Shown one piece after another: positions 2,508 to 61,285 of a stretch of 64,000 nt of DNA. The translations under genes were made by a program, and so were the position numbers. Position 1 is the stretch's first letter; each line of letters starts with the position of its first letter. A model generated the notes under the pieces. The model was given only the letters and a program-made list of their open reading frames with translations, was not told where the DNA came from and ran no database searches. Source of the DNA: Egibacter rhizosphaerae (lineage in GTDB: Bacteria > Actinomycetota > Nitriliruptoria > Euzebyales > Egibacteraceae); NCBI RefSeq assembly GCF_004322855.1, contig NZ_CP036402.1, positions 1,054,001 to 1,118,000 on the forward strand, written 5' to 3'.

Positions 2508-3695
2508 CTACGCCACGACGCTCGGATCCCCCTCGCCGCGCTCGGCCCGGATCTCGTCGGCCATCTCGTTCGCGAAGTGCACGAGGGTCTCGACGATGTC
2601 GGACTCCTGCACCGTGTACAAGACCTCGCCTCGGCGGATGATCTTGCCCTTGCCCTTGCCGGCGGCGACCCCGATGTCGGCCTCGCGCGCCTCACCGGGA
2701 CCGTTCACAACGCAGCCCATGACCGCGACGCGCAGCGGCACGTCGAGCCCTTCGAGCCCCTTCTGGACCTCGTCGGCGAGGGAGTACACGTCCACCTCGG
2801 CGCGGGCACACGACGGACACGCGACGACGTCGAGACCGCGTTCGCGCAGGTGCAGCGACTCCAGCATCGTGATGGCGGCCTTGACCTCCTCGACCGGGTC
2901 GGCCGAGAGCGACACCCGGACGGTGTCCCCGATGCCCTCGGCGAGCAGCGCCCCGATCCCGACCGCCGACTTGATGCTGCCGGTACCCGCCGGCCCGGCC
3001 TCGGTGACCCCGAGGTGCAACGGGTAGTCACAGGCGTCGGCGAGCAGGCGGTACGTCTGGATCATGACCCAAGGATCGGAGTGCTTGACGCTGATCTTGG
3101 TGTCGAAGAAGTCGACCTCCTCGAGCAGCCGCGCCTCGGCGAGCGCGCTCTCGACCAGCGCCTCCGGAGTCACGCCACCGTGACGGTCCAGGACGTCCTG
3201 CTCGAGCGATCCGCCGTTCACCCCGATGCGGATCGGGATGCCCCGCTCCTTGGCGGCGTCACCGATGACCTTGACCTTCTCGTGCTTGCGGATGTTCCCG
3301 GGGTTGATGCGCACCCCGGCCATACCCGCCTCGATGGCCGCCATCGCGTACTTCCACTGGAAGTGGATGTCCGCCACCACCGGCACCGGTGACTTCGCGG
3401 CGATCGCGGCCAGGGAGTCGGCGTCCTCCTGGCGCGGCACCGCCACGCGCACGATGTCGACACCCGCCGCCTGCAGCGCCGCGATCTGCTGCAACGTCGC
3501 GTTCACGTCGTGGGTCGGTGTGGTCGTCATGGACTGGACGCTGATCGGCGCGCCACCGCCCACCGGCACGTCGCCCACCCGCAGGGCGCGAGTCGGGCGC
3601 CGCTGCGGCGGTTGATGGTGGGCCGGAACGTCGGGGTCCGGCGCGGGCTGATTCACGAGCGGCAACGGGGTGCCCACAGCAGCCAACTCCTCCAT
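2508..3695 (-). CDS. ispG: 4-hydroxy-3-methylbut-2-enyl diphosphate synthase IspG
   Basis: This is the penultimate step of the MEP isoprenoid pathway, converting methylerythritol cyclodiphosphate to HMBPP with a [4Fe-4S] cluster. The conserved N-terminal [20 protein letters not shown] (41-60) and the cluster ligands CPSC (C293, C296), C328 in [11 protein letters not shown] and the nearby Glu are all present. Length is 395 residues. The first six codons include GGAGGAG, a strong ribosome binding site placed 9 nt before the GTG at 3677, so the true start may be that GTG, which would trim six residues. Downstream of rseP and dxr, this forms the common actinobacterial dxr-rseP-ispG cluster. Two MEP-pathway enzymes in one operon imply this organism makes isoprenoids by that route. 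Confidence 0.97.
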
Positions 3696-58702: not shown

Positions 58703-58739
58703 CCCCGACCTACCTCACTTCAGCCATCCCCGACCTACC
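58695..58739. repeat. Tandem duplication linking cimA stop and acetyltransferase start
   Basis: The 20-mer TCAGCCATCCCCGACCTACC occurs at 58695-58714 and 58720-58739, a period of 25 bp. One copy overlaps the acetyltransferase start codon and the other the cimA stop codon. Confidence 0.9.
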
Positions 58740-60399
58740 CGGGACCATCGATGCCGGCCAGGCCGTACCGGTAGGCGTCGGCCATCGCCTTCCACGAGGC
58801 ATCGATCACGTTCTCGGAGACACCGACCGTCTGCCACTCGCGCTCCCCATCGGACGAGGAGACGAGAACGCGCGTGGTCGCACCCGTCCCGGCCTGCGGG
58901 TCGACGATTCGCACCTTGTAGTCGGCGAGGTGGATCCGGTCGAGATCGGGGAACTGCCCGTTCACGGCGTGGCGGAACGCCTGGTCCAGCGCATCCACGG
59001 GGCCGTTGCCCTCACCCACGCCGATCCGTCGCGACCAACCCCCTTCGGCCGTCTCGTCGCGCACCCAGACGCGCACGGTGCCCTCGGCGACCGGGCTGCC
59101 GTCCTCTCGCCGCTCGACGATGGCCCGGAACCCCTCGAGGCGGAACACGTCCTCGGCGGTGCCCGCCTCGTCCGCGACGAGCAGCTCGAACGAGGCGTCG
59201 GCGGCCTCGAAGGAGTACCCGGCGTGCTCGAGGTCCTTGACGCGTCCGAGGATGCGATTGGCGAGGTCGCCGTCCCCGCCGAGGTCGATCCCGAGCTGCT
59301 CCCCCTTCATCACGATCGTGGACCGACCGGCGAGCTCGCTCATCAGCAGCCGCAGCTCCCCGCCGACCTTCGCGGGGTCGATGTGCTGGTAGGTCATCGG
59401 GTTCTTCTGCAGCGCGGAGGTGTGCAGCCCCGCCTTGTGCGCGAACGCGGCATGGCCGACGTACGGGGCGTGCGGGTCCGGGATGAGGTTCATGGTCTCG
59501 GCCACCTCGTTGGCGACGGTGGTGAGCTGTCCGAGCTCGGTGTCCCCGACGACGTCGATGCCGTACTTGAGCTTGAGGTTCGGGATCAGCGAGCACAGGT
59601 TCGCGTTGCCGCAACGCTCCCCGATGCCGTTGACCGTCCCCTGCACGTGGGTCGCTCCGGCGCGCAGACCCGCGAGCGAGTTCGCGACCGCGCACTCGGT
59701 GTCGTTGTGGACGTGTACGCCGATCTGCGTGCCTCCCCGGCCACCGAAGCGGCCGACGACCCCGCCGGTGACACGCTCCACCTCTTCCGGCAGCATCCCG
59801 CCGTTCGTGTCGCAGAGCACGAGACACTCGGCGCCGGCCTCCGCCGCGGCCTCGAGGACCGCAAGCGCATAGTCCGGATCGTTGCGATGCCCGTCGAAGA
59901 AGTGCTCGGCATCGAACAGGACCCGCCGGCCCTCGCTGCGCAGCAGCCGCACGCTGTCGGCGATCATCGCGAGGTTCTCGTCCTTCGTCGTCCCGACCGC
60001 CTCGGTGACGTGCAGGCTCCATGCCTTGCCCACCAGACACACCACCGGCGTGGCCGCCTCCAGCAGGGTCCCGAGCGAGGGATCGCCCGAGGCGTCCCGA
60101 TCGGGACGCCGCGTCATGCCGAATGCGACGAGCTCCGCACGCTCCAGCGGGAGCTCACCCTTCGCCGCCCGCGCGAAGAACTCCGTGTCCTTCGGGTTCG
60201 CACCCGGCCAGCCGCCCTCGATGAACGGAACGCCCAGACCGTCGATGAGCCGTGCGATGCGCAGCTTGTCGTCGACGGTCGGCGTGATCCCCTCGCGCTG
60301 GGTGCCGTCCCGCAGGGTCGTGTCGTAGAGGTCGACCCATGCGGGCAGGGGCGTGTCGGGTTGCCGACCAGGGGACTCGGCGACGTGGTCTTCGGCCAT
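58735..60399 (-). CDS. cimA: Citramalate synthase
   Basis: CimA condenses pyruvate and acetyl-CoA to citramalate, the threonine-independent entry to isoleucine. The HMGL-like barrel is clear: VDLYDTTLRDGTQREGITPT, EGGWPGANPKDTEFF, LVLCDTNGGMLPEEVERVTG, GVHVHNDTECAVANSLAGLR and GTVNGIGERCGNANLCSLIP. The C-terminal regulatory LeuA-dimer domain (KVRIVDPQAGTGATTRVLVS) confers feedback control in the family. 554 residues. It could be confused with 2-isopropylmalate synthase, but the GWPGANP and GERCGN motifs are CimA-like. Confidence 0.94.
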   Translation of the reverse strand: MAEDHVAESPGRQPDTPLPAWVDLYDTTLRDGTQREGITPTVDDKLRIARLIDGLGVPFIEGGWPGANPKDTEFFARAAKGELPLERAELVAFGMTRRPDRDASGDPSLGTLLEAATPVVCLVGKAWSLHVTEAVGTTKDENLAMIADSVRLLRSEGRRVLFDAEHFFDGHRNDPDYALAVLEAAAEAGAECLVLCDTNGGMLPEEVERVTGGVVGRFGGRGGTQIGVHVHNDTECAVANSLAGLRAGATHVQGTVNGIGERCGNANLCSLIPNLKLKYGIDVVGDTELGQLTTVANEVAETMNLIPDPHAPYVGHAAFAHKAGLHTSALQKNPMTYQHIDPAKVGGELRLLMSELAGRSTIVMKGEQLGIDLGGDGDLANRILGRVKDLEHAGYSFEAADASFELLVADEAGTAEDVFRLEGFRAIVERREDGSPVAEGTVRVWVRDETAEGGWSRRIGVGEGNGPVDALDQAFRHAVNGQFPDLDRIHLADYKVRIVDPQAGTGATTRVLVSSSDGEREWQTVGVSENVIDASWKAMADAYRYGLAGIDGPG

Positions 60400-60456
60400 C
60401 GGTGCACCTCACCTTCGCGTGGTGTGGTGCCGACCGTTGAAGCGACCGCCCCGAAG

Positions 60457-60506
60457 GGTGCCGGCCGCTCCCGCAGCCGGCACCGCCCACCGGTCTACGG
60501 GAGCGG
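60457..60506 (-). promoter_or_regulatory. Mutually exclusive hairpins of the cimA leader
   Basis: On the minus strand CCGCTCCCG (60506-60498, the last three sense codons of the leader peptide) can pair perfectly with CGGGAGCGG (60473-60465). The second segment forms the loop of another perfect 9-bp hairpin, GGTGCCGGC (60484-60476) with GCCGGCACC (60465-60457), so the two folds exclude each other. GTCGGCACC at 60434-60426 offers a third partner. No T tract follows, so whether control is at transcription or at translation is open. Confidence 0.65.
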
Positions 60507-60581
60507 TCGAATAATGATCCCGGCGCACGCGAGGACGGCCACCGACGTGGCCTCCGGGTGCGTGCGCGTGTGCAACATCAC
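60495..60581 (-). CDS. Leader peptide of cimA with three consecutive Ile codons
   Basis: A 28-codon open frame upstream of cimA; after GTG-ATG it reads LHTRTHPEATSVAVLACAG, then Ile-Ile-Ile (ATC ATT ATT at 60518-60510), Arg-Pro-Leu-Pro and TAG. AT-rich Ile codons in a row are very unusual in this high-GC genome, and Val, Leu and Ile dominate the second half. cimA makes isoleucine, so stalling on scarce Ile-tRNA is the natural reading. The GTG lies 7 nt after the CACACT -10 box, so the peptide may be translated from a leaderless mRNA; the ATG one codon later is the alternative. Confidence 0.72.
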   Translation of the reverse strand: MMLHTRTHPEATSVAVLACAGIIIRPLP

Positions 60582-60588
60582 GCAGGCG

Positions 60589-60617
60589 AGTGTGGCACGA
60601 GGCGCAAGCCGCGGCAA
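60589..60617 (-). promoter_or_regulatory. Candidate promoter of the cimA leader
   Basis: TTGCCG (60612-60617) and CACACT (60589-60594) are 17 bp apart on the minus strand. Transcription would begin at or next to the GTG of the leader peptide. Confidence 0.5.
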
Positions 60618-60706: not shown

Positions 60707-61285
60707 GTGACGACGCTGCCGCCGCCACGCCGGACGGCGAGCGTGGTCGCGATCGTCATCGTTCTCGTGACGCTCGTGGCCGGAGGCCTCCTCGTGGTGC
60801 TCGCGAGCGACCCCTTCGAGCGCAGTGGCGCGACGATGTGCCCCGAGGACAGTCGGCGGCTGCCCGTCGACGAGGGGGCCGCGAGCACCGCGTGCCTGCC
60901 GACGAACCTCGAGGGCACCGAGATCGGCTTCGGCGTCACGATCCGCAACGAGGGCGAGCTTCCCGCCCGCGTGCGCTCGGTGCCCCTCGGACAGCTCGAC
61001 CGCGGCGGCTTCACCCCCACCGCCGTGCGCGAGGCCCCCGTGCCCGCGGACGGCGCGCCCCCGGACTCGCCGAGCGACCTCGCGGAGCTCGAGCCGTTCA
61101 CGCTCGCTGCCGAGGAGGAGCGCCTCCTCTGGTTCGAGGGCCGGCTGGAGGACTGCGAGGACCGCGAGATCGGCCGCGCCACCCAGGTCCCGGAGGTCTT
61201 CTTCCGGATGTCGCGGCTCGGCCTGCCGCGTGAGGCCGAGATCGACCTCGACCCCGCCATGGGCTGGATCGTGGAGGCCTGTTAG
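60707..61285 (+). CDS. Membrane-anchored protein of unknown function
   Basis: 192 residues: one N-terminal membrane helix (VVAIVIVLVTLVAGGLLVVL, residues 13-32) and an exported domain with a beta-strand pattern (LEGTEIGFGVTIRNEGELPA) and three Cys residues near MCPED, STACLP and EDCED. GTG start 60707 with AAGGAG about 14 nt upstream, so the leader may differ. No family recognised. It is divergent from cimA. Confidence 0.68.
   Translation: MTTLPPPRRTASVVAIVIVLVTLVAGGLLVVLASDPFERSGATMCPEDSRRLPVDEGAASTACLPTNLEGTEIGFGVTIRNEGELPARVRSVPLGQLDRGGFTPTAVREAPVPADGAPPDSPSDLAELEPFTLAAEEERLLWFEGRLEDCEDREIGRATQVPEVFFRMSRLGLPREAEIDLDPAMGWIVEAC

Follow-up and report, generated by a model that had tools for sequence, protein, structure and literature searches.

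A putative isoleucine-sensing leader peptide with alternative RNA folds upstream of cimA in Egibacter rhizosphaerae and related Nitriliruptoria

Is cimA of Egibacter rhizosphaerae controlled through translation of a short frame in its own leader that carries three isoleucine codons in a row? The gene encodes citramalate synthase, which performs the opening step of the threonine-independent isoleucine route and is used in metabolic engineering. An initial annotation had proposed an isoleucine leader-peptide attenuator at this position. On the comparisons described below, an isoleucine-sensing attenuator of this kind is the best reading of the locus and is well supported at the sequence level. 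We put the probability at about 75% that the region is a cis-acting isoleucine sensor working through leader-peptide translation, in which starvation would lead to one of two RNA folds (helix A) and to cimA expression.

Leader frame, promoter, and distribution of the element

The window, by which we mean the whole 64-kb stretch of DNA that was analyzed, carries cimA on the minus strand. The protein passes the curated TIGR00977 cut-off (674.3 versus 450 bits), which bears out the gene assignment of the initial annotation. Further upstream and also on the minus strand, past an opposite-facing gene at 60707-61285, lie ilvE (TIGR01122) and leuB (NF002898). The divergent gene itself (plus strand, 192 aa) is without a Pfam or NCBIfam family match. 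As the E. rhizosphaerae genome also has a threonine dehydratase gene (TIGR01127, above its cut-off), cimA is not the sole possible source of 2-oxobutanoate. Read in the direction of transcription from the divergent gene toward cimA, the order of elements is −35, −10, leader ATG, Ile run, region 1, hairpin B, an SD-like sequence, and the cimA ATG. The features outside the folds are as follows.

60612..60617, minus strand: −35-like hexamer TTGCCG, with a TTG-initial counterpart 17 to 18 nt from the −10 at each of the 19 loci in the family and sister family
60589..60594, minus strand: −10-like hexamer CACACT, from comparison across family and sister-family loci
60495..60578, minus strand: putative leader peptide ORF, MLHTRTHPEATSVAVLACAGIIIRPLP and stop, with equivalent frames of 25 to 34 aa in 45 loci
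60510..60518, minus strand: three Ile codons ATC ATT ATT, proposed sensing codons, conserved as Ile in relatives
60400..60456, minus strand: spacer between hairpin B and cimA, containing the SD-like GAAGGTGAGGTG
58735..60399, minus strand: cimA, citramalate synthase, putative regulated gene (ATG at 60399)

The leader frame encodes 27 aa (28 codons including the stop), with its ATG at 60578 and TAG at 60497-60495, exactly the 28-codon frame that had been described. The distance from its stop to the cimA start is 95 nt, and that from hairpin B is 57 nt; the earlier figure of about 60 nt therefore holds for the hairpin and not for the leader stop.

To place the frame in context, cimA upstream regions were gathered by protein search and from named contigs. 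The nearest ones belong to Nitriliruptorales and Nitriliruptoria, and we refer to the class by this name since its named relatives are Nitriliruptoria. A frame ending in III-X-X-L-P-stop occurs 70 to 170 nt 5′ of cimA in nearly all class members. Counted back from the stop, Ile occupies codons −7, −6, and −5 in 35, 41, and 44 of 45 loci, respectively, and the Ile codons of these runs are ATC (84 instances) or ATT (36 instances) but never ATA. The initial annotation had also counted Val and Leu codons as part of the signal. This candidate was rejected, as these codons are not conserved in relatives; conservation is confined to the Ile codons and the final LP-stop. What remains is a short conserved frame with a codon run matching the pathway product, as is general for leader-peptide attenuators, and the frame is predicted to be translated.

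The promoter was missed by a generic scan of the window, in which it scored below the cut-off, and was revealed by comparison only. TTGCCG and CACACT are separated by 17 nt, and the leader starts about 10 nt past the pair. A similar pair (TTG followed by CA(C/G)A(C/A)T, 17 to 18 nt apart and 5 to 12 nt before the leader start) was found at each of the 19 loci from the family and sister family, so the promoter-like pair of the initial annotation stands in spite of its low score. Given this fixed spacing, transcription probably starts within a few nucleotides of the leader ATG in the family and sister-family group, and the leader message there is probably leaderless or nearly so. Judging from the hexamers, the putative promoter thus lies upstream of the leader and would place the transcript start at the leader start and not downstream of 60500, a position that had been named as incompatible with the proposal. 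In the other large family, by contrast, the leader start of many loci is preceded by a ribosome-binding site of the GGGAG type.

A covariance model of the element matched 49 of 66 genomes of the class with one copy each (28 of 33 among the better genomes). In 47 of the 49 matching genomes, some of them outside the sequences used to train the model, the element precedes cimA. The remaining 17 class genomes gave no match, and several of these are incomplete. When 396 genomes were drawn from the phylum, all 34 matches fell within the class and none outside it. By chance alone, a GC-rich intergenic region could contain a small ORF that has a run of Ile codons, and short ORFs are indeed frequent in the 64-kb window. 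This explanation is refuted by the comparison, as the element is conserved class-wide with covariation (see below) and as III or IIII leaders, present in 10 of 99 cimA upstream regions from other actinobacteria, occur in shuffled versions of these regions at a rate of just 0.006.

In two genomes of the same order (G029 and G024), the element is lost at cimA and is found instead upstream of an orphan gene encoding roughly 200 aa.

L161:100-370 (plus strand) and L162:2580-2800 (minus strand): element before the orphan gene, with a leader ending in LIIRSVT-stop or RIIRSAT-stop

The orphan protein has no Pfam match. Its predicted structure, which is of low confidence (pLDDT 47), begins with the beta-alpha-beta-beta-alpha-beta order of ACT domains; such a topology would suit a branched-chain regulatory subunit, a thought that we offer only as a lead.

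Two RNA folds that exclude each other

The end of the leader frame is complementary to the loop of a hairpin that follows directly 3′ of the frame, and a hairpin with the loop CTGCGGGAGCGG is found at this position in nearly all class members.

60495..60506, minus strand: region 1, CCGCTCCCGTAG, made up of the stop and the three codons before it; 5′ strand of helix A, with complementarity to the hairpin loop across nearly all relatives
60465..60476, minus strand: region 2, CTGCGGGAGCGG, serving both as the 3′ strand of helix A and as the hairpin B loop, with five pairs showing compensatory change
60457..60484, minus strand: hairpin B, GGTGCCGGC-(TGCGGGAGCG)-GCCGGCACC, with four pairs showing compensatory changes

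In helix A, CCGCUCCCGUAG (60506-60495) pairs with CUGCGGGAGCGG (60476-60465) over 12 nt, with an energy of −34.4 kcal/mol including an inner extension. In helix B, GGUGCCGGC (60484-60476) pairs with GCCGGCACC (60465-60457; −27.0 kcal/mol). Because the two helices share bases, they are mutually exclusive. The 55-nt core is more stable than all but one of 200 dinucleotide shuffles (z = −3.65).

Covariation was assessed in an alignment of 41 sequences that was not fitted to any structure. Helix A was paired in 90.8% of cells, compared with 34 to 58% in slid versions, and five of its pairs had changed on both sides. For helix B, 80.5% of cells were paired; double-sided changes affected four pairs (24 cells), and its covariation score of 0.257 compares with a maximum of 0.111 among slid versions. 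Compensatory changes in both helices exceed the shuffled controls and most of the slid controls; as the sequences are related, the shuffles do not give a strict probability, while the slid controls preserve the relatedness. Individual double changes can be followed in the sequences: in L125, CTCCCG in the leader has become CTTCCG and CGGGAG in the loop has become CGGAAG, and in L006 and L115, a leader change from CCG to CTG is accompanied by CGGG to CAGG in the loop. An alignment over relatives, proposed in the initial annotation as the decisive check, hence shows both the Ile run and the stems conserved throughout the class with compensatory changes, and the two exclusive folds that it had drawn from the leader end and the hairpin loop are upheld by the 12-nt complementarity and by covariation in both helices. 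Of the two predicted folds, one overlaps the leader codons and stop.

Helix A also explains why the terminal Leu-Pro-stop is conserved, which suggests that the last codons are maintained as RNA. Could the conserved segment then bind a protein or a metabolite as RNA, with the short ORF being incidental? For the related LEU element, a role in protein binding was put forward on the grounds that mutating the leader changed little (PMC1262725). We consider this very unlikely for cimA. Neither helix includes the Ile codons, and these are retained as Ile with free exchange of ATC and ATT, so that conservation acts here at the level of the codon; moreover, the start, frame, and stop are held at a fixed distance from the promoter, and independent III or IIII leaders precede cimA elsewhere. 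In an Rfam search, the element was below the gathering threshold of any family, and no T-box was found.

Ribosome position and output of the switch

How would translation of the leader choose between the folds? Under the leader-peptide reading, scarce charged tRNA-Ile would hold the ribosome at the first Ile codon (Ile-1), with its front edge just before region 1. Counted from the first base of the run of Ile codons, region 1 starts 12 nt downstream, and the ribosome footprint is such that the front edge in an Ile-1 stall fits this distance. Region 1 would then pair with region 2, and helix A would block hairpin B and allow cimA expression. With isoleucine plentiful, the ribosome would reach the UAG, which lies inside region 1, and block helix A; hairpin B would form and cimA expression would drop.

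We explored these states by equilibrium folding, with the ribosome modeled as a mask. The mean pairing of helix A was 0.64 without a ribosome and 0.59 with one at Ile-1. A ribosome at the stop codon reduced helix A to 0.00, and helix B rose to about 0.40. From the position of the stop, the 12-nt spacing, and these values, we infer the direction of the switch: A would form under starvation, and B would be the fold that represses. When the third codon of the Ile run (Ile-3) occupied the A site, helix A fell to 0.07 and helix B reached 0.39. A stall at Ile-3 thus largely blocks helix A, and the direction of the switch depends on the stall position. In the window's own sequence (L001), the untouched long leader is predicted to favor B over A, and the 55-nt core alone favors A.

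The Ile-3 values agree with an opposite wiring, in which a stall at the Ile run covers region 1 and hairpin B is a starvation antiterminator comparable to the trpL 2:3 helix, acting against a downstream repressor structure that escaped detection. The distance from Ile-3 to the stop is four codons, which resembles the spacing in trpL. Such wiring calls for a partner downstream. No terminator was found there, nor any conserved segment that pairs with the 3′ arm of hairpin B; the complementarity expected of a classical 3:4 helix was below that of shuffles (P = 0.999). We regard this reading as unlikely. Pairing of the leader end with the downstream region was considered separately and rejected, being no better than in shuffles (P = 0.82).

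How hairpin B acts is the least certain part of the proposal. Our first choice would be that transcription stops prematurely at hairpin B or just past it, through a process that does without a U-tract and is perhaps assisted by Rho. No U-tract follows hairpin B in any of the 43 loci inspected, and a scan of the window found no terminator-like site before cimA, so the cimA leader has no classical intrinsic terminator with a U-tract, and hairpin B does not count as one of the standard type. In this genome, the leader of ilvB does have a U-tract. The attenuator originally proposed is accordingly retained as leader-peptide control, while termination in the strict U-tract sense is not supported by the relatives. 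Generic U-tract terminators are near chance level in the window, however, which makes a missing U-tract weak evidence against termination in E. rhizosphaerae. The stretch 3′ of hairpin B is C rich and G poor (C/(C+G) of 0.61, compared with 0.50 and 0.46 in controls), a composition resembling, and compatible with, Rho loading sites.

We rank translational control second. Here the sensor would be the same, but the choice between A and B would set the masking of the cimA SD, as has been proposed for the LEU element of actinobacterial leuA. The absence of a U-tract terminator is in line with this possibility. A local hairpin (GCACCACACC/GGTGAGGTGC; −13.2 kcal/mol) could form over the SD in the window, and long hairpins could mask it in L007, L016, L122, and L126. 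Upstream pairing of the SD was 0.69, compared with 0.60 in shuffled sequences (Fisher P = 0.013), a weak difference given that the 31 loci are related, and complementarity between the region 1-region 2 interval and the downstream sequence was slightly above that of shuffles (P = 0.016; again with related loci). Against this, SD accessibility was flat over the four modeled ribosome states (0.36, 0.37, 0.42, and 0.37), and the spacer between the element and cimA varies in both length and sequence. With weak statistics and no response to the ribosome state, SD masking was rejected as a general output, and we judge translational output to be rather improbable.

Comparison with other branched-chain leaders

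Two further leaders in the E. rhizosphaerae genome offer a comparison. The ilvB leader (L289, G000:C1:1149900-1150900, minus strand) encodes MSDAVCALRRGVLILVPRPRLVGG and stop, with mixed codons (GVLILV), and a hairpin followed by TTTTT; its layout is that of a standard attenuator. The leuA leader (L290, G000:C1:1135300-1136300, minus strand) ends in LLIGLLLLVL-stop and has a long hairpin without a U-tract; it resembles the LEU element. With Ile-only codons before cimA, mixed codons before ilvB, and Leu-rich codons before leuA, the codons of each leader match the product of the gene behind it.

All ten cimA leaders with III or IIII outside the class (L169, L200, L209, L216, L217, L233, L238, L242, L243, and L254) have a terminator-like hairpin and a T-rich tail, as do those of the named Acidimicrobiia L036, L058, and L062. 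The outside leaders have two tandem hairpins, the first beginning at the leader stop and not overlapping the U-tract terminator. An Armatimonadetes contig (L067, upstream of position 3001) likewise has a leader, MARSATTIIIT-stop, with a terminator-like hairpin and T-rich tail before cimA, which suggests transfer or independent origin. An Rfam search at the leaders of L058, L062, and the ten outside loci gave no match. On the Acidimicrobiia contig L058, a SAM riboswitch lies at 1097-1181, about 1.9 kb upstream of cimA. Leader control of cimA thus probably exists in more than one actinobacterial class, in different architectures.

In the open-access literature, to which our search extended (subscription papers were outside its scope), we found no report of a cimA leader or of RNA-level control of cimA. 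This agrees with the initial annotation, which was aware of none, and novelty is claimed provisionally. An earlier survey of actinobacterial leaders covers trp, cys, ilvB, leuS, and leuA (the LEU element) and describes nothing conserved elsewhere except ileS T-boxes; in the parts consulted, it does not mention cimA (PMC1262725).

Like classical attenuators of the trpL, ilvL/ilvB, and leuL type, the cimA leader has a short ORF with a run of product codons before a biosynthetic gene, a stop codon within an alternative helix, and two exclusive folds. It differs from them in its target, in a hairpin B without a U-tract, and in that no separate conserved third or fourth segment was found. With T-boxes, known for ileS in Actinobacteria, it would share the sensing of one tRNA's charging, although here through a leader that is predicted to be translated.

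The LEU element (Seliverstov et al. 2005, PMC1262725) is similar in that the leader overlaps a compact fold without a terminator before a branched-chain synthesis gene. Its Leu codon run pairs with the leuA SD, and the pseudoknot is conserved. For cimA, a search for a comparable pseudoknot gave the slight complementarity between the region 1-region 2 interval and downstream sequence noted above (P = 0.016, related loci). No equivalent pairing between codon run and SD was found for cimA, where the Ile codons lie outside all supported helices and region 2 is a hairpin loop at least 65 nt before the cimA start. Actinobacterial ilvB leaders (PMC1262725; for a corynebacterial uORF, PMC10272879) also place branched-chain codons before a branched-chain synthesis gene, with mixed Ile, Val, and Leu codons and a U-tract terminator, whereas the cimA leader has Ile only and no U-tract. 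Other cimA leaders of Actinobacteriota and Acidimicrobiia end in III or IIII as well, but the second of their tandem hairpins is a standard U-tract terminator, and no helix between leader codons and a hairpin loop was seen in them by eye.

We suggest, tentatively and at a little less than even odds, that the element has a distinct architecture, in which the codons at the leader end and the stop are antisense to the apical loop of a hairpin, ribosome position alone selects the fold, and the output (through Rho or translation) needs no U-tract terminator. If so, citramalate synthase would be under isoleucine control of this kind across the class Nitriliruptoria. The element would be a compact isoleucine sensor, open to testing, in an actinobacterial class that has been little studied, and it raises the question of how leader attenuation proceeds in GC-rich bacteria when the hairpin is without a U-tract.
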